IMG/VR virus record: IMGVR_UViG_3300006192_000038
Span: 1-24,710 of that record
Reading direction: 5' to 3' (one strand)
Length of the DNA stretch: 24,710 bases
Source of the DNA: a virus
The position numbers and the translations under genes were made by a program. Of the stretch, positions 7,157 to 24,710 are shown in pieces (position 1 is the stretch's first letter; the number at the start of each line of letters is the position of its first letter). Below the pieces are notes generated by a model. The model saw nothing but the letters and a program-made list of their open reading frames with translations, searched no databases and was not told the origin of the DNA.

Positions 7157-8281
7157 ATGTGGCCTTATGTACAGATCAACAACTTGAACCAGATGCAGGG
7201 GCCGGTGACCGAAGTCGAGCGCCACCTGCTGTTTATCGGCAGCGCCGCCAGCAACACCGGCAAGCTGCTCTCCCTCAATACCCAGTCCGATTTTGACCAG
7301 CTGCTGGGCGCCGCTGACAGCGAGCTCAAGGCCAACCTGCTGGCGGCCCGCGATAACGCCGGCCAGAACTGGACTTCGGCCGCTTACGTGCTGCCCACCG
7401 ACCAATCCTGGCTGGATGCGGTACGAGAGGCTCAGCAAACCCAATCCTTTGAAGGTGTCGTGGTACTGGGGCAAGCATGGGACGCCGCCAGCATCAACGC
7501 CGCCCACGCCCTCAACCAGGAGCTGATCGCCAAGTGGGGACGCTGGCAGTTCATGCTGCTGGCGGTGCCGGGTATCAATGCCACCGGCGAAGGCGCCCAA
7601 GACTGGCCCGAGTACGAGGCCACCCTGGCCGCCCTGCAGGAGGGCATCAAGGCCGATTCGATTGGCCTGGTGCCGATGCTCTGGCCAAACCTCATCGGGG
7701 TCTATGCCGGGCGCTTGTGCAACCGGGCGGTGAGCATCGCCGACAGCCCGTGCCGGGTGAAGACCGGCGCCCTGGTCGGCCTTGGCAACAAGCCGGTGGA
7801 CAAGGACGGGATCCCGCTGCCGCTGGCCACCCTGCAGACCCTGGAAGCCAACCGCTACTCGGTGCCGATGTGGTACCCGGACTATGACGGCCTCTACTGG
7901 GCAGACGGGCGCCAGCTCGATGCCGAGGGCGGTGACTACCAGGTGATCGAGAACCTGCGCATTGCTTACAAGGTGGCGCGCCGGACCCGTATCCGCGCCA
8001 TCGCCCGCATCGGTGACCGCTCGTTCAACTCCACCCCGGGCAGCACCGCCGCCGCCATCACCTACTTTGGCAAGGACCTGCGCGAGATGGCCAAGGCCAC
8101 CACCATCAACGGCCAGCCGTTCCCGGGCGACATCGCCTCCCCCAAAGAGGGAGACATCAGCATCCAGTGGACCGCCAAGAACCTGGTCTCTGTCTATGTG
8201 GTGGTGCGCACCGTGGACTGCCCCAAGGGGATCACCGTCAACATCATGCTCGATTTGAGCCTCAATAACGGGGAGGGCTAA
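7157..8281 (+). CDS. Contractile tail sheath protein (DUF2586 family)
   Basis: This is the contractile outer tube of the myovirus tail. Its 374 residues match the DUF2586 type of sheath found in HP1/K139-like phages rather than P2 gpFI. The N-terminal half holds a sheath-initiator-like region (HLLFIGSAASNTGKLL). The C-terminal part has the conserved sheath core: YQVIENLRIAYKVARRTRIRAIARIGDRSFNSTP (about 255-300), then a strand-rich tail VSVYVVVRTVDCPKGITVNIMLDLS. The tube gene lies directly downstream, the universal sheath-tube order. Confidence 0.88.
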   Translation: MWPYVQINNLNQMQGPVTEVERHLLFIGSAASNTGKLLSLNTQSDFDQLLGAADSELKANLLAARDNAGQNWTSAAYVLPTDQSWLDAVREAQQTQSFEGVVVLGQAWDAASINAAHALNQELIAKWGRWQFMLLAVPGINATGEGAQDWPEYEATLAALQEGIKADSIGLVPMLWPNLIGVYAGRLCNRAVSIADSPCRVKTGALVGLGNKPVDKDGIPLPLATLQTLEANRYSVPMWYPDYDGLYWADGRQLDAEGGDYQVIENLRIAYKVARRTRIRAIARIGDRSFNSTPGSTAAAITYFGKDLREMAKATTINGQPFPGDIASPKEGDISIQWTAKNLVSVYVVVRTVDCPKGITVNIMLDLSLNNGEG

Positions 8282-8284
8282 GCA

Positions 8285-8740
8285 ATGACCCGTCGTATTT
8301 CCGGTGCCAGCTTTGACACCACCCTGATGGGGGCCATGGTCCACGTCGAAAAGGCCAGCCTCTCCATCACCGACAACAGCGCCGTGGCCCAGACCCGGGG
8401 CGTCCCGGATGGCTATGTGGACGGGGACGTCTCGGCGGAGCTGGAGTTCGAGCTCGACACCAAGAACCTCAAGTTACTGGCCGATGCCGCCAAACGGGCC
8501 GGCAGCTGGCGCGGGATGGAACCGGACGATGTGCTGTTCTACGCCGACACCGGCAGCGACCAGATGAAGGTGGAGGCCTTTGGCGTGAAGCTCTTGGTCT
8601 CCGACCTGCTCGACGTCGATCCCAAGGGCGGCAGCAAGAGCGTGCACAAGGTGAAAGGCTTTGTGACCTCCCCCGATTTTGTTCACCTCAATGGCGTGCC
8701 GTACCTCTCCAAGGACGACACCCGCCACCTGCTGGGTTAA
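8285..8740 (+). CDS. Tail tube protein (DUF2597 family)
   Basis: The 151-residue protein is predicted to form the inner tail tube. It has the strand-rich pattern of tube proteins (VHVEKASLSITDNSAVAQTRGVPDGYVDGDVSAELEFELDTKNL), followed by a short helix (LKLLADAAKRAG) and a C-terminal strand pair. The sequence type corresponds to DUF2597, found next to DUF2586 sheaths in Vibrio K139-like phages. Start lies 3 bp after the sheath stop. Function is inferred from family and position. Confidence 0.85.
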   Translation: MTRRISGASFDTTLMGAMVHVEKASLSITDNSAVAQTRGVPDGYVDGDVSAELEFELDTKNLKLLADAAKRAGSWRGMEPDDVLFYADTGSDQMKVEAFGVKLLVSDLLDVDPKGGSKSVHKVKGFVTSPDFVHLNGVPYLSKDDTRHLLG

Positions 8741-9306: not shown

Positions 9307-10398
9307 GTGATGACTGATCAAATGCAGATCCACAAAATCAACGAGCGGCTCAAGCTGGTCAATGCCGACTCGCTGGCTTACCTCACCACACTGCCATCCC
9401 ACAGCCTGGATCTGGTGGCCGTCGATCCCCCTTATTACCGGGTCAAAGATCTGAACTGGGACAACCAATGGCCCAACGTCGAGGCCTATCTGGATTGGCT
9501 GGAAGCGTGCGTGGTGGAGTTTGCCCGCATACTCAAGCCCAACGGCTCGCTCTATCTGTTTTGCAGCCCCAGCCTCAATGCCGACATCGAGCTGCTGGTG
9601 CGCAAGCACTTCAACGTGCTGAGCCACATCGTCTGGGCTAAGCCATCTGGCGTGTGGAACCGGGCTGACAAGTCGGCCTTGCGCAACTTCTGGCCCGCCA
9701 GTGAACGCATCATCTTTGCCGAGCAGTTGGGTGCCCATGGCAGCGTACAAGCCAGTGGCTATCGCCAAGCCTGCCAGGCACTGCGTGGCCAGGTAATGCA
9801 GCCACTGATCGACTACTTCCAGCAGGCCAAGGCCGCCTGCGGTATTTCCAACAAAGAGATCGACCAGGCCCTGGGCTGCCAAATGGCGGGCCACTGGTTT
9901 GGCCGCAGTCAATGGAGCCTGCCAAGCGAAACGCAATATGCCCGCTTGCAAGCCCTGTTTGCCCGCAAAGCCCACGCCCTGAGCCGGCCCCATCGCGAGC
10001 TCAAAGAGACGTATCAGGGACTGCATCGCACCTATCAGACCCTGGCCGCCAGTTATGACCAGCTCAAGGCCGAATATGAGCAGCTGCGCCGCCCGTTCAG
10101 CGTCACCAAAGAGGTGCCCTTTACCGATGTGTGGACCTATCCCTCGGTGCAGGCCTACCCGGGCAAACACCCGTGCGAAAAGCCCGCCGCCATGATGGAG
10201 CACATCGTGCGTACCAGCAGCCGGCCGGGTGACGTGGTGGGGGATTTCTTCATGGGCTCTGGCGCTACCGGAAAAGCTGCCTGGCGCCTCGGCCGCCGCT
10301 TTATCGGGGTGGAGCTCGAAGCCCATCGGTTTGCCCAGACCTGCCAGGAATTTCAGGCCCTCATCAGCCAGGAGGAAACCCACCATGGCGCGCAGTAA
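9307..10398 (+). CDS. DNA adenine N6-methyltransferase
   Basis: This orphan methyltransferase is expected to transfer a methyl group from S-adenosylmethionine to adenine. The catalytic motif IV, DPPY, is at residues 40-43 and the SAM-binding motif I, DFFMGSGATG, at 313-322, so catalytic precedes SAM-binding (beta class). Between them lies a target-recognition region with a helix-turn-helix-like stretch (ISNKEIDQALGCQMAGHWFGRSQWSLP, about 179-205) and a predicted coiled coil (LKETYQGLHRTYQTLAASYDQLKAEYEQL). GTG 9307 sits nine bases from AAGGAG; ATG 9310 is an equally possible start. No partner endonuclease is next to it. It overlaps the endolysin by 14 bp, in the middle of the lysis genes. Target sequence is unknown. 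Confidence 0.9.
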   Translation: MMTDQMQIHKINERLKLVNADSLAYLTTLPSHSLDLVAVDPPYYRVKDLNWDNQWPNVEAYLDWLEACVVEFARILKPNGSLYLFCSPSLNADIELLVRKHFNVLSHIVWAKPSGVWNRADKSALRNFWPASERIIFAEQLGAHGSVQASGYRQACQALRGQVMQPLIDYFQQAKAACGISNKEIDQALGCQMAGHWFGRSQWSLPSETQYARLQALFARKAHALSRPHRELKETYQGLHRTYQTLAASYDQLKAEYEQLRRPFSVTKEVPFTDVWTYPSVQAYPGKHPCEKPAAMMEHIVRTSSRPGDVVGDFFMGSGATGKAAWRLGRRFIGVELEAHRFAQTCQEFQALISQEETHHGAQ

Positions 10399-10846
10399 CT
10401 GCCACCCGCAAGTGGCCGCTTTTCTGGACATGCTGGCCTATGCCGAAGGCACCAAAGGGCTCGGCGATGACGGTTACAACAAGCTGGTCAACCCGGCGGG
10501 GTTCTTTACCGACTACCGCACTCACCCCAACGTCAAGGTGCAGGTGAACCCGCGCCTAGTCAGCACCGCCGCCGGGCGCTATCAGCACCTGTCCAAGCAC
10601 TGGCCACACTACCGTGACCGGCTCGGCCTGCCGGACTTTGGCCCCGAGTCGCAAGACACCTGGGCCATCCAGCTTATCCGCGAGCGCAAGGCGCTGGCCG
10701 ATGTGGTCGATGGCCGCATCCCCCAGGCGATCGCCAAATGCGCCAACATCTGGGCCAGTCTGCCCGGTGCCGGCTATGGCCAGCGCGAGCATCGGCTAGC
10801 TGACCTGCTGGCCAAGTTCACCGAGTTTGGCGGGGTGCTGGCATGA
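10385..10846 (+). CDS. Endolysin, lambda R-like lytic transglycosylase
   Basis: It cleaves the glycan strands of peptidoglycan once the holin opens the membrane. I start at ATG 10385, giving 153 residues (lambda R is 158); an upstream in-frame extension to 10229 lies inside the methyltransferase and is rejected. Alignment by eye to lambda R is clear: FLDMLAYAEGT (catalytic Glu21 in the AEGT context), GFFTDYRTHPNVKVQVNPRLVSTAAGRYQ, LPDFGPESQDTWAIQLI and ANIWASLPGAGYGQREH. No signal or SAR segment is visible, so export depends on the holin. Stop overlaps the Rz start. Confidence 0.93.
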   Translation: MARSNCHPQVAAFLDMLAYAEGTKGLGDDGYNKLVNPAGFFTDYRTHPNVKVQVNPRLVSTAAGRYQHLSKHWPHYRDRLGLPDFGPESQDTWAIQLIRERKALADVVDGRIPQAIAKCANIWASLPGAGYGQREHRLADLLAKFTEFGGVLA

Positions 10847-11286
10847 ACATCTTCAAAGAACTGTTCTCCAACCTGCTGTTTGTGCTGGTACTGGCCATGG
10901 GCGCCGCCTTGCTCCTGGGCAGCCGCATGCTCGATAGCCGAGGCAAGGCGCTGGCCACCGCCAACGAGACCATCACCACCCTGCAGAGAGCCAACGACCA
11001 GATGGCCACCGAGTTCAAGACACTGCAACGAGAAGAGAGGGGGCTGCGCACGCTGCTCGCCCACCAGAACGCCGCCCTGACCGAGCTCGACCAACAACAG
11101 AGGAAAACTGCCGATGACCTGCAACACGCCCTGGCCACGCCGCCGGCGGGCCGCCCGGACTGCGCTCGCGAGCCTCTGCCTGTTGGTGCTCTGCGCCTGC
11201 TCCAGCCAGCCAAGGACCGTGGTGCACGCCAAGGTGGTGAAGCGGCTGCCACCGCCGGGGCTGGTGCCCCACTGCCCGGAGCCTGA
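10843..11286 (+). CDS. i-spanin (Rz-like)
   Basis: The inner-membrane spanin subunit links to Rz1 and fuses inner and outer membranes in the last step of lysis. Of 147 residues, 8-26 form an N-terminal membrane anchor (SNLLFVLVLAMGAALLLGS). Residues 30-100 are a charged, helical coiled-coil-like periplasmic domain (LQREERGLRTLLAHQNAALTELDQQQRK). The C-terminus includes DCAREPLPVGALRLL, a typical Rz/LysB end pattern. The last 60 codons overlap Rz1 in another frame, which explains the odd, low-complexity C-terminal tail after about residue 125. Confidence 0.85.
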   Translation: MNIFKELFSNLLFVLVLAMGAALLLGSRMLDSRGKALATANETITTLQRANDQMATEFKTLQREERGLRTLLAHQNAALTELDQQQRKTADDLQHALATPPAGRPDCAREPLPVGALRLLQPAKDRGARQGGEAAATAGAGAPLPGA

Positions 11287-11413
11287 ATTTAACGGCACTA
11301 CCTGGGGCGAGGCAGTGGCCTTTATCCCCACCCTGCAGGGCGCGCTGCGCCGCTGCCAAACCCAACTCGACACCCTGAATCAGTGGATTGAACAAGAGGA
11401 AACCACCCCATGA
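11114..11413 (+). CDS. o-spanin lipoprotein (Rz1-like)
   Basis: The outer-membrane partner of Rz. The 99-residue precursor has an Arg-rich start (PRRRRAAR), a hydrophobic core and a lipobox ending LCAC with the lipidated cysteine at position 29, giving a mature lipoprotein of about 71 residues. The proline-rich RLPPPGLVPHCPEPEF segment is characteristic of Rz1 proteins. The gene starts inside the Rz frame (about codon 90) and runs on for 127 bp beyond the Rz stop, so the two genes overlap out of frame but are not fully nested. Stop overlaps the start of the tail chaperone gene (ATGA). Confidence 0.85.
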   Translation: MTCNTPWPRRRRAARTALASLCLLVLCACSSQPRTVVHAKVVKRLPPPGLVPHCPEPEFNGTTWGEAVAFIPTLQGALRRCQTQLDTLNQWIEQEETTP

Positions 11414-11673
11414 GCAAGCAAACCATCACCCTGACCATTGCCGGCACCGACATCAGCTTTGAGCCAACCCTGGTGGCCTACAACAGCTACATCAACGACC
11501 TGGCCATGAACGACAAGGTGGCGCCGGCCCACAACTACCTGCGCAAGATTGTCAGCGCCGAGCACAAAGAGGCCCTGAGCGATCTGCTCGCCCTGCCGGG
11601 CGCGGCCCTGCAGCTGACCGCCAAGATCAACGAGGAGTTCGCGCCGGCGCTGGATATCACCGTAAAAAACTGA
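11410..11673 (+). CDS. Tail assembly chaperone, short form (gpE/gpG analogue)
   Basis: Such proteins coat the tape measure before the tail tube polymerises. The 87-residue zero-frame product (SKQTITLTIAGTDISFEPTL at the start, then HKEALSDLLALPGAALQLTAKINEEF) looks like the phage tail assembly chaperone found upstream of tape measures in HP1/K139-type phages. It is the equivalent of P2 gpE (91 residues) and lambda gpG. The final codons GTA AAA AAC TGA contain a classic -1 slippery heptamer, so a fraction of ribosomes should make the longer form. The tape measure gene follows 194 bp later. Confidence 0.82.
   Translation: MSKQTITLTIAGTDISFEPTLVAYNSYINDLAMNDKVAPAHNYLRKIVSAEHKEALSDLLALPGAALQLTAKINEEFAPALDITVKN
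11664..11670 (+). promoter_or_regulatory. Programmed -1 ribosomal frameshift site (A AAA AAC)
   Basis: The heptamer A AAA AAC is read in zero frame as GTA AAA AAC and is followed at once by the TGA stop. It fits the X XXY YYZ consensus for tandem -1 slippage. The frame entered by slipping back one base stays open to 11858. GC-rich self-complementary sequence just downstream (GGGCGCGCC) could form a stimulatory structure, though I cannot fold it here. Confidence 0.82.
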
Positions 11674-11858
11674 CCGGGCGCGCCGAGGCCATCGAGCGCA
11701 ACCAGCTGGAACAGGTACTGGCGCTGCGGCGCCACTACCTGCCCCATGAAGAGGATGACCTCGACAGCCTGGCCCGCGCCCTCTGGTTTGATAAGCATGC
11801 CCGGGACACGCTCGCCTTTGCCGTCGCGCAGGGGATAGCCAAAGCCTTCAACGGATAA
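11670..11858 (+). CDS. Frameshift extension of the tail assembly chaperone (gpE'/gpT analogue)
   Basis: This 62-codon frame runs from the slippery site to TAA 11856-11858, 9 bp before the tape measure gene. It contains no ATG, GTG or TTG codon, so it has no ordinary way to be started alone. It encodes a plausible protein segment (ALRRHYLPHEEDDLDSLARA, then DTLAFAVAQGIAKAFNG). With the upstream 87 residues the fusion would be about 149 residues, close to P2 E+E' at 142. In lambda and P2, such fusions recruit the tape measure protein. Similar small proteins may be annotated separately in related phages, but the lack of a start favours frameshifting. Confidence 0.78.
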   Translation: MTGRAEAIERNQLEQVLALRRHYLPHEEDDLDSLARALWFDKHARDTLAFAVAQGIAKAFNG

Positions 11859-11867
11859 GAGACCCCT

Positions 11868-13919
11868 ATGGCCTGGATGGAAAAACTGATGATGCAGGTG
11901 GCACTGGTGGACAATGCCACCAAGCCGCTGGCGGGCATCAACACCCAGATCGACCAGATCAGCAAAGCGGGTCGGCAGGGGTGGACCAACATGGCCATGG
12001 GCACCACCACCGTAGTGGCCGGCGCCATGGCGATCCAGAACGTACTGGGCCCGGCTATCGAAATGGATCGGGCGCTGGCCGAGGTGGCGTCTCTGGACGT
12101 GCACGAACAGACCCTCAAACAGCTGTCCGACACCGCCCTGCAGTTCTCGGTGGACTATGGCGAGTCAGCCAGTGAGTTCGTGCGCGCCTCCTACGATATT
12201 CAATCCGCCATCGCCGGGCTTGAGGGCAATGAGCTGCCCGCCTTTGCCCGCGCCTCCGGGGTGCTGGCCAAGGCCACCAAGGCCGACACTGCCACCATCA
12301 CCAACTACATGGGCACCATGTACGGCATCTTTGAGCAGCAGGCCGTGCGCATGGGCAAAGCCAACTGGGTAGAGGACATAGCAGGCAAGACCGCCACCGC
12401 GGTGCAGATGTTCAAGACCACCGGCCAGGGCATGACCGACGCCTTCAAGGGCATCGGCGCCAACGCCACCGCCGCCGGCATTTCGATGGATGAGCAGTTC
12501 GCCGTGCTCGGCCACCTGCAGGCCACCATGGGCGGCGGCGAAGCCGGTACCAAGTTCAAATCCTTCCTGGCCGGGGTCGGCAACGCCCAGAAGGCGCTGG
12601 GCCTGCAGTTCACCGATGCCGCGGGCAACATGCTGCCGGTGCTCGACGTGCTGGAAAAGCTCAAAGCCCGCTATGGCGAGACCCTGACCGTCGCCGGCGG
12701 CGATGAGCTGAAAAAGGCGTTTGGCTCGGATGAAGCGGTGTCGATGATCAAGCTCTTGATGAGTAACACCAAGGGGCTCTCCAACAGCATCAATGCCCTG
12801 GGCAACACCTATGGCATGGGCAAGGCCGAGCAGATGGCCGCCGCCATGACCGACCAGTGGCAGCGGGTCGAATCTGCCTGGTTTGCTATTCGGGCCGCCG
12901 CGTTCGGGGCGGTACTGCCCGCCATCAACCAGGTGGTGGGCGCCTTTGCCGATGGCGCCGACACCGTGCTGCGCTGGACCCGGCTCTTTCCCCACCTGAC
13001 CAAGGCGGTCAGTTACGCCATCCTGGCCATCGTCGGGCTTGGCATGGTCACCGGGAGCTGGTTGCTGCTGGCGGGCTTGGCCAAGCTGGTGACCCTGGGC
13101 TGGGGCATCGTCATGACGGGGTTGCTCGCCCCGCTCAAGCTGCTGCGCGGTGCCATGGCGCTGATGCGCACCACCGTCTTGTTGGTGAACCTCGCCATGT
13201 ACGCCAACCCGGTGCTGCTGATCGTGGGCGGCATCCTCGCACTGGTCGCCGCCGTGGCGCTGGCCATCGTCTACTGGGACGAGCTCTATGCCGCCTTCTC
13301 TGTGCTGACCAACTTTGAGCTACTGGGTGCCTTCTTCAGCGGGCTGGCCGAGACCTTCGGCCCCCTCGCCTCCCAGGCACTGATCCCCATTGCAGACACC
13401 CTGGGGATCATCGTGACCTTGCTCGGCCAAGCCTGGGACTGGCTCGGTTCCTTCTTCGGGGCCACCGAGCAGGCCAGCCTCGGGGTCGATGGGGTGACCG
13501 ATGCCGGCCGGCGTCTGGGGTCCGTCCTCGGGGCCGTGTTCGAAGCCCTGCTCACTCCCTGGCAGTGGATCATCAAGGCCATTCGCTACGCCCTCGACTT
13601 GATGGGGATGATCCCGGGCATCGACATCGACACCAGCAAGCTGGTGATGCCGGACCTGAGCCTGCCCCTGACTACCCAGCTGCAAGCCCCGGCGCCGATG
13701 GAGCGCATCAATGCCCCGCTTGCGCGCTACCGCCAGCAAGACCAGAGCGCGGTGCCCTCGGGCGGCCTGGGCCAGCAGTTGATCCAGGCCAACGCGGCCG
13801 CGACCACGGCCAACCAGAAACCGGCCAAGGCCCTGCACATCGGCGAGGTGCACATGCACAACCAAAACCCGATGACGCCGGAGCAGATGGCCGAGAACGC
13901 CTGGCTGGAGACCAAGTGA
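11868..13919 (+). CDS. Tail tape measure protein (gpT analogue, TP901-like core)
   Basis: It sets tail length and lies inside the tube until DNA ejection. The 683-residue protein has a helical N-terminus (MEKLMMQVALVDNATKPLAGINTQ), then the TP901-type core with DRALAEVASLDV (near 65), YGESASEFVRASYDIQSAIAG, TATAVQMFKTTGQGMTDAFKGIGANA and LGHLQATMGGGEAGTKFKSFLAG. Residues about 380-470 are hydrophobic with several potential membrane-spanning helices (ILAIVGLGMVTGSWLLLAGL; VLLIVGGILALVAAVALAIV), as usual for proteins that enter the host membrane. The C-terminus is Pro/Gln-rich with HMHNQNPMTPEQMAENAW. Its stop overlaps the next start. Confidence 0.9.
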   Translation: MAWMEKLMMQVALVDNATKPLAGINTQIDQISKAGRQGWTNMAMGTTTVVAGAMAIQNVLGPAIEMDRALAEVASLDVHEQTLKQLSDTALQFSVDYGESASEFVRASYDIQSAIAGLEGNELPAFARASGVLAKATKADTATITNYMGTMYGIFEQQAVRMGKANWVEDIAGKTATAVQMFKTTGQGMTDAFKGIGANATAAGISMDEQFAVLGHLQATMGGGEAGTKFKSFLAGVGNAQKALGLQFTDAAGNMLPVLDVLEKLKARYGETLTVAGGDELKKAFGSDEAVSMIKLLMSNTKGLSNSINALGNTYGMGKAEQMAAAMTDQWQRVESAWFAIRAAAFGAVLPAINQVVGAFADGADTVLRWTRLFPHLTKAVSYAILAIVGLGMVTGSWLLLAGLAKLVTLGWGIVMTGLLAPLKLLRGAMALMRTTVLLVNLAMYANPVLLIVGGILALVAAVALAIVYWDELYAAFSVLTNFELLGAFFSGLAETFGPLASQALIPIADTLGIIVTLLGQAWDWLGSFFGATEQASLGVDGVTDAGRRLGSVLGAVFEALLTPWQWIIKAIRYALDLMGMIPGIDIDTSKLVMPDLSLPLTTQLQAPAPMERINAPLARYRQQDQSAVPSGGLGQQLIQANAAATTANQKPAKALHIGEVHMHNQNPMTPEQMAENAWLETK

Positions 13920-21938: not shown

Positions 21939-22211
21939 CTAAGGCGGCCTGACTTGCTTGCACGAAACTTCAAGCAGCTTCGCTAAACTGAACAGGTAGG
22001 GTGGATGCTCCTTCGTACATGGAGCTATCTCCAGATCCTTGATGGTTCCAACATAGTTAAATGGACTGATAGCTTCGGGTGATACTATAGAAAAAACCAT
22101 GGGTTCTATATCGAGACCCACCAGTCTTGCTGCCCTATTAACGGCCTCTGCAATGAGGGCTGCGTTGAATGGGGCTCTACAGCCATCACGTTTAATAACT
22201 ACCGGTTTCAC
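21939..22211 (-). pseudogene. Truncated nrdD-like ATP-cone fragment
   Basis: GTG 22211, with AAGGTGG seven bases upstream, opens a 90-residue product. The first 38 residues (beginning with KPVVIKRDGCRAPFNAAL, then IAEAVNRAARLVGL) match the ATP-cone start of anaerobic ribonucleoside-triphosphate reductase NrdD (E. coli HVMKRDGCKVPFKSERIKEAILRAAKAAEV). The next 25 residues, to about GTIKDLEI, still look like a diverged cone. After that the sequence is unrelated and stops at TAG 21939-21941. Full NrdD is over 700 residues, so only the allosteric domain start survives. The catalytic and glycyl-radical parts are absent. A real small ATP-cone protein is possible but unlikely. Confidence 0.6.
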
Positions 22212-22951: not shown

Positions 22952-23037
22952 TGGTGCCCGGGGTCGGACTCGAACCGACACGATTATTCATCGGCGGATT
23001 TTGAATCCGCTGCGTCTACCGATTTCGCCACCCGGGC
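22952..23037 (-). tRNA. tRNA-Leu, anticodon CAA
   Basis: The 86-nt gene on the minus strand starts GCCCGGG and ends CCCGGGC-A-CCA, with the CCA encoded. The anticodon arm is CGGAT/GCGGA-type with loop TTCAAAA, so the anticodon is CAA (codon UUG). The T-arm contains GGTTCGAGTCC, and the extra arm is long, as in class II leucine tRNAs. Its 3' end faces the prophage, the usual orientation for tyrosine-integrase insertion in a tRNA 3' end. Confidence 0.97.
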
Positions 23038-23774: not shown

Positions 23775-24710
23775 CTACTGTTTGCGGCTCAAGATATAGA
23801 AGGAGATACCGCCAAACAACAGACTGGGAGCAATGGCGGCCAGGATCGGCGGCACTGCGTACACCAGACTGATGGGCCCGAACACACGATCGCTCACATA
23901 GACGGCGAAACCTGTCATGATCCCCATCAGCATGCGAGCCCCCATGCTCACCGAGCGCAGCGGGCCGAAGATGAAGGAGGAGGCGAGCAGTATCATGGCC
24001 ACCACGGAGAGCGGCGACAACAGCTTGCGCCACATCTCCAGCTTGTAACGCCCGGCGTCCTGCTTGTTGGCGTCCAGATAGCCTATGTAGTCGAGCAGAC
24101 CGGCCACCGGCAGGTTTTCTGGGTCGATACTCACCACACCGAGCTGCTTGGGCGTGAGCTCGGAGCTCCACTCCATCTGGGCCTGCGTCTCGCTCAGGAT
24201 CTGCGCGGGATCGTCAAAACGGGTGATCTGGACCTGCTTGAGCAGCCAGTGATGCTGCTCAAACACGCCTTCGCGAGCCTGGAGTATATCGATCAGCTTA
24301 CGCTCTGGCGTGAAGCGATAGAGGGTGATGCCGGTCAGTGCACCATCGTTGCGCACCCCGTTGATATTGACGAAGTTGTTGCCATCGCGTGCCCAGACCC
24401 CATACGCAGAAACAGTCAATCGCCCCTCTGACAGCGCGCCAGCCTTGACGTCGTCTGCCATCCGCTTGGCGATGGGCGCCACATACTCACCCATCAATCC
24501 CACCAGTATCATCAAGGGGATCGCAGTCTTGAGCGCCGCCATCACGATACTGATCTTGGAGCGGCCCGCAGCCTGCATCACCACCAGCTCAGAGCTGGTC
24601 GCCAGCTGACCCAGCCCTATGAGTCCGCCCAGCAGGGCAGCCAGCGGGAAGAACTGAACCGCCTCCTTGGGCATGGAGAGCAGGACGTAATAGAGCGCAT
24701 TGATCATGTC
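23775..24710 (-). CDS. lptG: LPS export permease LptG (N-terminus outside the window)
   Basis: LptG is one half of the inner-membrane LptB2FG transporter that extracts lipopolysaccharide and feeds it to the LptC-LptA bridge. 311 codons are visible. Alignment by eye to E. coli LptG begins near its residue 46, so roughly 45 residues including the first membrane helix are beyond the right edge. Conserved stretches are FFPLAALLGGLIGLGQLATSSELVVMQAAGRS, IGEYVAP-like MGEYVAP, GVWARDGNNFVNINGV, TPKQLGVVSIDPENLPVAGLLDYIGYLDANKQDAGRY, and SFIFGPLRSVSMGARMLMGI. The periplasmic beta-jellyroll lies between the two membrane halves. lptF is expected just upstream (to the right), as in other gammaproteobacteria. 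This gene places the right flank firmly in host chromosome. Confidence 0.96.
   Translation of the reverse strand, partial: DMINALYYVLLSMPKEAVQFFPLAALLGGLIGLGQLATSSELVVMQAAGRSKISIVMAALKTAIPLMILVGLMGEYVAPIAKRMADDVKAGALSEGRLTVSAYGVWARDGNNFVNINGVRNDGALTGITLYRFTPERKLIDILQAREGVFEQHHWLLKQVQITRFDDPAQILSETQAQMEWSSELTPKQLGVVSIDPENLPVAGLLDYIGYLDANKQDAGRYKLEMWRKLLSPLSVVAMILLASSFIFGPLRSVSMGARMLMGIMTGFAVYVSDRVFGPISLVYAVPPILAAIAPSLLFGGISFYILSRKQ

Follow-up and report, generated by a model that had tools for sequence, protein, structure and literature searches.

The locus examined here lies directly upstream of the tail tape measure gene of a prophage and holds a small tail assembly chaperone gene, which runs at its very end into a slippery heptamer and an overlapping -1 frame. 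Coordinates refer to the window, the whole stretch of 24,710 nucleotides of IMG/VR record IMGVR_UViG_3300006192_000038 that was analysed, and the relevant features are the following:

11410-11673, plus strand: tail assembly chaperone, zero-frame product of 87 aa (Phage_TAC_10, PF10963, E 9e-37; phrog_1214)
11664-11670, plus strand: slippery heptamer A_AAA_AAC, in register (direct reading)
11671-11673, plus strand: zero-frame stop TGA, adjoining the heptamer (direct reading)
11670-11858, plus strand: -1 frame extension of 62 codons plus TAA, DUF6890 (PF21830, E 1.5e-19; phrog_7050)
11680-11724, plus strand: candidate downstream stem-loop, suggestive only (11680-11684 with 11720-11724; inner 11688-11690 with 11714-11716)
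11868-13919, plus strand: tail tape measure protein of 683 aa, the presumed client of the chaperone (phrog_28, E 2e-98; TIGR01760, E 2e-23; PF10145)
8285-8740, plus strand: tail tube protein of the HP1 Orf24 family, the presumed partner of the extension (PF10772, E 1e-64; phrog_1182)

Within the P2 family, the prophage in the window belongs to the HP1/phiO18P type. Its gene order runs from portal and terminase on the minus strand through scaffold, sheath (7157-8281), tube and lysis genes to the chaperone, the tape measure and the baseplate genes, the portal, terminase and lysis genes being assigned by eye and by analogy with the phiO18P record. The nearest relatives of the region are found in Aeromonas prophages and phages. 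Within the lysis cassette, a methyltransferase-like gene (9307-10398) is located just 5' of the muramidase gene, as it is annotated in phiO18P, and nested Rz/Rz1-like spanin frames are present at 11114-11413 and 10843-11286. The chaperone ATG at 11410 shares bases with the stop of the Rz1-like frame (ATGA), which suggests that these two frames may be translationally coupled. Near a tRNA-Leu(CAA) gene (22952-23037, minus strand) that lies at the right edge of the prophage, a short minus-strand ORF (21939-22211) begins by eye like NrdD, the anaerobic ribonucleotide reductase, and ends in an unrelated-looking sequence, possibly representing a rearranged junction. Additionally, the gene at 23775-24707 (minus strand) resembles by eye LptG, a permease of lipopolysaccharide transport, so that the window probably runs into host chromosome at its right end.

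The chaperone gene ends with the codons GTA (11662), AAA (11665), AAC (11668) and TGA (11671), which puts AAAAAAC in the X_XXY_YYZ register, and direct reading thus bears out to the base the statement of a preliminary description that A AAA AAC stands in the correct register right before the stop. From 11463 onwards no stop interrupts the -1 frame until the TAA at 11856-11858, and ATG, GTG and TTG are absent from it throughout. Its first codon past the heptamer is CTG (11670), 62 codons are counted from there, and 9 bp separate its stop from the tape measure ATG at 11868, so that each element of the earlier claim of a start-less 62-codon frame ending 9 bp before the tape measure gene was confirmed from the sequence. 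Two overlapping frames are therefore found directly 5' of the tape measure gene, which is the next ORF downstream. In Pfam, PF10963 scored 125.5 bits (cut-off 25.7) and PF21830 69.9 bits (cut-off 23.6), the two domains being adjacent and the second one at -1. AAAAAAC occurs five times in the window versus 0.9 times expected from shuffles, so the motif by itself is not decisive; the copy in the chaperone gene is the sole in-register A6 heptamer among 15 phage genes checked, and it lies at the exact end of the first frame, within the long start-less -1 frame. A Shine-Dalgarno-like GAGGAG is also present about 26 nt 5' of the heptamer, and it was set aside as a signal of this shift site because it is too far upstream.

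Conservation of the heptamer, which the preliminary description had proposed as a check, was analyzed in relatives gathered as two sets, one via the chaperone and the other via the extension alone, so that the heptamer was not presupposed, together with named phages. As the alignment of diverse chaperones (A1) was unusable for the collection scans, the extension served as query instead. The resulting 394 loci with both domains, HP1, HP2, K139, F108, PV94 and phi3 among them, were grouped at about 90% nucleotide identity into 122 clusters, and since the clusters are related, their counts are not counts of independent events. The extension stands at -1 relative to the chaperone in all 394 loci and is fused in frame in none. 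A_AAA_AAN is found in register in 387 of the 394 loci and 117 of the 122 clusters, the heptamer ending in AAC in 58 clusters, in AAA in 32 and in AAG in 27, with five clusters having none, and the site type changes at least eight times on the tree. The stop adjoins the heptamer in every AAC cluster (58/58) and in 24 of the 32 AAA clusters (82/117 in total), and lies exactly 21 nt past it in all AAG clusters and the other eight AAA clusters. Furthermore, in an independent sample of 394 genomes from one order the heptamer was in register in 29 of 29 loci, the query's own being excluded.

Codon choice at the shift site tracks the heptamer rather than codon usage. The codon that supplies the first A is GTA, ATA, CTA or TTA in 117 of 117 clusters, versus 19.6 A-ending codons expected from their own codon usage; by the same measure, the lysine of the heptamer is AAA in 117 of 117 (64.1 expected) and the asparagine AAC in 58 of 58 (33.0 expected). 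In the genes of the window, GTA is used 19 times versus 288 for the other valine codons, and AAA 57 times versus 160 for AAG. This bias beyond codon usage indicates that the nucleotide string itself is kept.

Purifying selection acts on the -1 frame, its first 13 codons included. Using 2786 pairs with 80-99% identity, an estimate that replaced one from all pairs in which very divergent ones were included, dN/dS was 0.20 for the -1 frame and 0.26 for its codons 1-13 alone; the chaperone gave 0.28, and the two remaining frames 1.36 and 2.33. A decaying second frame next to an incidental heptamer, a reading that might be seen in the loss of the heptamer from 5 of the 122 clusters, is contradicted by this strong selection and by the codon bias at the site over hundreds of loci, and is the least probable of the alternatives, almost negligible. 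In addition, the extension is modelled as a confident helical domain (pLDDT 96; helices 2-10, 13-24 and 32-62) whose helix 1 begins at residue 2, at the junction; a Foldseek search of this model against viral models gave no meaningful match.

These data also bear on whether the extension could be a separate short gene, translated from an internal start of its own or by termination-reinitiation after the chaperone. Most records that show the extension at all follow that reading: among 21 phage records of the HP1-like family seven carry a separate internal ORF (phiO18P, for example, from a GTG), one the fusion and 13 no extension at all, and some ATG, GTG or TTG occurs within the extension frame in 111 of 117 clusters. 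However, the extension frame of the window has no such codon, and the first one in relatives varies in position from 2 to more than 50 codons in. The commonest first internal start in relatives is codon 14, near the GTG annotated in phiO18P, and initiation there would, according to the model, delete helix 1, which is formed by the very codons 1-13 that are under purifying selection. A separate gene would also leave the conserved heptamer, its register and the biased codons unexplained, and we regard it as very improbable. In this regard, the Pfam model PF21830 starts at residue 20 of the window extension, which is consistent with a family built from truncated gene calls.

The preliminary description had named relatives lacking the heptamer and keeping a separately started second ORF as evidence against a frameshift. 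We looked for them: five clusters of 122 (L039, L099, L114, L192 and L393) lack the heptamer, and all of these keep the extension. That a few relatives lost the heptamer is added by the present analysis; on the tree, this class requires three changes or more. In L039 (together with L395 and the near-copy L115), L099, L114 and L393 the place of the heptamer is taken by [AG]TA AAG, and in L192 by ACA CTG GAC TAA, which contains no slippery sequence. The -1 frame of L039, L099, L114 and L115 is open merely 10-16 nt ahead of the zero-frame stop, and the extension there continues K-G-[IL]-[TD] and onwards, with the first ATG, GTG or TTG at least 11 codons past the stop; throughout the [AG]TA_AAG clusters, L393 included, a shift is possible only within a stretch of 10-37 nt. 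In the heptamer-less clusters other than L393, conservation of the extension reaches further 5' than the first ATG, GTG or TTG, which gives no support to separate initiation. For the [AG]TA AAG relatives, a slip on A_AAG would be the natural guess. The Providencia genome that holds L115 (G002) carries three such extensions, among which L479 has an A_AAG site and L482 AAAAAAC.

Downstream of the heptamer, the folding energy of 50-nt segments dips at about +5 in the AAC and AAA groups. When the segment from +5 to +55 was compared with synonymous codon resampling, the AAA group with an adjacent stop was more stable than expected (mean z -2.87), with a significant stem in 20 of 24 clusters that mostly starts at +7 to +10. 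The AAC group showed a moderate effect (z -0.99; significant stem in 13 of 58) and the AAG group none (z 0.16; 0 of 27). A stem 8-10 nt downstream is well supported, at the level of sequence, in the Vibrio relatives, where a 9-bp stem starts at +8, and in the enterobacterial ones, where it starts at +9, in both cases with covariation support. In the Aeromonas-type set, to which the window belongs, the stem 11680-11684/11720-11724 is the best-paired of 32 registers (83% of cells paired versus 24-67% when slid); its energies, no stronger than those of synonymous codon resampling (mean z -0.16), make the stem in the window and in this group only suggestive. A search of Rfam gave a single match, at chance level only.

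Stem strength also differed with site type, being strong with AAA, intermediate with AAC and absent with AAG. That heptamer type might be traded off against stem strength was accordingly considered and not retained: striking though it looks by group, the link has only four independent pairs behind it on the tree and lacks significance. Three ideas about variant shift signals, namely a single-codon slip on A_AAG, the adjacent stop as part of the signal (82/117) and site type traded against stem, are possible though rather unlikely.

The frame change could also be thought of as made by RNA polymerase slipping on the run of A, in which six or seven A are conserved. With six A and then a C, the run is short for the polymerase to slip on productively. 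A ribosomal shift, moreover, agrees better with the downstream stems at the usual spacing of ribosomal frameshifting, as well as with those relatives that have just A_AAG in place of the heptamer, and transcriptional slippage seems to us even less probable than a separate gene.

The relationship of the two products to known chaperones was analyzed at the level of fold and of sequence. The AlphaFold2 model of the chaperone (pLDDT 90) has as its closest solved fold 3fgx, an uncharacterised protein (Z 10.4), followed by the HK97 tail assembly chaperone 2ob9 at a Z of 5.2, which is below the clearly meaningful range, and Foldseek matched it to several viral chaperones weakly (E 0.01-0.4). These matches of a predicted structure are compatible with a chaperone role and are no proof of it. 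In Pfam, none of the 45 sequences in either alignment matched PF10109 or PF06528, the families of P2 E/E', and hhalign of chaperone and extension against the P2 proteins showed no relation (probability about 1% or less). The scan with P2 E' returned identical copies only, so that no P2 E' profile could be obtained. A likeness of the extension to P2 E' seen by eye, H-x-x-P-x-E, was supported by neither hhalign nor Pfam and was dropped. By its sequence, the pair is a member of the HP1-like PF10963 plus PF21830 group; it would work like P2 E/E' while having, at the sensitivity used, no sequence relation to those families.

The resemblance to P2 gpE/gpE+E' of the FETUD operon is nevertheless extensive at the level of organization. 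P2 is a contractile-tail phage of the same family with a small gene just 5' of the tape measure, a slippery heptamer close to the end of the first frame and a -1 frame that extends up to the tape measure gene. Its frameshift was reportedly described by Christie et al. in 2002, the site is annotated in the P2 record, and T_TTT_TTG was found in P2 gene E, in agreement with what had been stated about P2 in the preliminary description. In contrast to the window, P2 uses T_TTT_TTG instead of A_AAA_AAC, has its stop 18 nt past the heptamer rather than adjacent, overlaps the tape measure start with its -1 frame where the window has a 9 bp gap, and carries PF10109 and PF06528 rather than PF10963 and PF21830, with no detectable sequence relation. 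Lambda gpG/gpGT likewise pairs a short chaperone, the major product, with a frameshifted one made in minor amount; lambda differs in being a siphophage, and its heptamer is G_GGA_AAG. Closer to the window, both domains are homologous and the heptamer is in register in the HP1-like group (HP1 orf26, K139, F108, PV94, phiO18P) and in gp36/gp36a of Pseudoalteromonas phage ACA1, which differs in using A_AAA_AAA with the stop 21 nt downstream. The GenBank record of ACA1 carries "a projected programmed frameshift analogous to that in phage P2". Frameshifts of the P2 type have been described as conserved among P2-related phages (PMC3931495), and the HP1-type frameshift was not named in the open literature searched. 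The kind of frameshift is thus already known, and a relative, ACA1, is already annotated with it.

A small chaperone gene before the tape measure gene, an in-register heptamer, a start-less coding -1 frame and a helical add-on together place the locus with the lambda G/GT and P2 E/E' type, and a programmed -1 ribosomal frameshift giving two tail assembly chaperones from one start is, with high confidence, the best explanation of the sequence. The predictions that sequence could address, those on the heptamer and its register, the -1 frame, selection and the position before the tape measure gene, all favour it. From the anatomy, conservation and selection obtained here, and by analogy with lambda and P2, we infer the slippage, its rate and the roles of both products. 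Most ribosomes would read AAA AAC TGA and release the 87-residue protein. In a minority, tRNA-Lys and tRNA-Asn on AAA AAC would re-pair one base further 5', with AAA AAA, and translation would go on with CTG ACC GGG, producing a minor fusion of 149 residues, that is, the 87 residues ending in K-N followed by the 62 that begin with L-T-G-R. On the model of lambda gpG/gpGT and P2 gpE/gpE+E', the tape measure protein may be bound by the domain that both products share, and the tail tube subunit may be recruited by the rare helical extension (DUF6890); for lambda, the common part is described as binding the tape measure and the extension as binding the tube protein (PMC5009743). The preliminary description had also called the heptamer clear; this holds for its conservation and not for its efficiency, since a review (PMC5009743) rates A_AAA_AAC as slipping much less readily in E. 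coli than A_AAA_AAG, which counts against the frameshift reading. The stem energies of the Aeromonas-type group, which stay within the codon null, and the five clusters that keep the extension in the absence of the heptamer weigh on the same side.

Lastly, the analysis changes how the second half of the pair can be read. DUF6890 and PHROG 7050, both listed without function, are explained as the half of a tail chaperone that frameshifting produces; new in this analysis is that DUF6890 has this origin family-wide. We suggest that both models begin inside the real domain, gene callers having taken chance internal starts, and annotating the short ORF alone, as most records do, would omit the predicted fusion. 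Furthermore, the family constitutes a natural series of shift sites in one homologous gene, with three heptamers, two stop spacings, several stem registers and even sites without a heptamer, suited to measurements of the rules that -1 frameshifting follows in bacteria.
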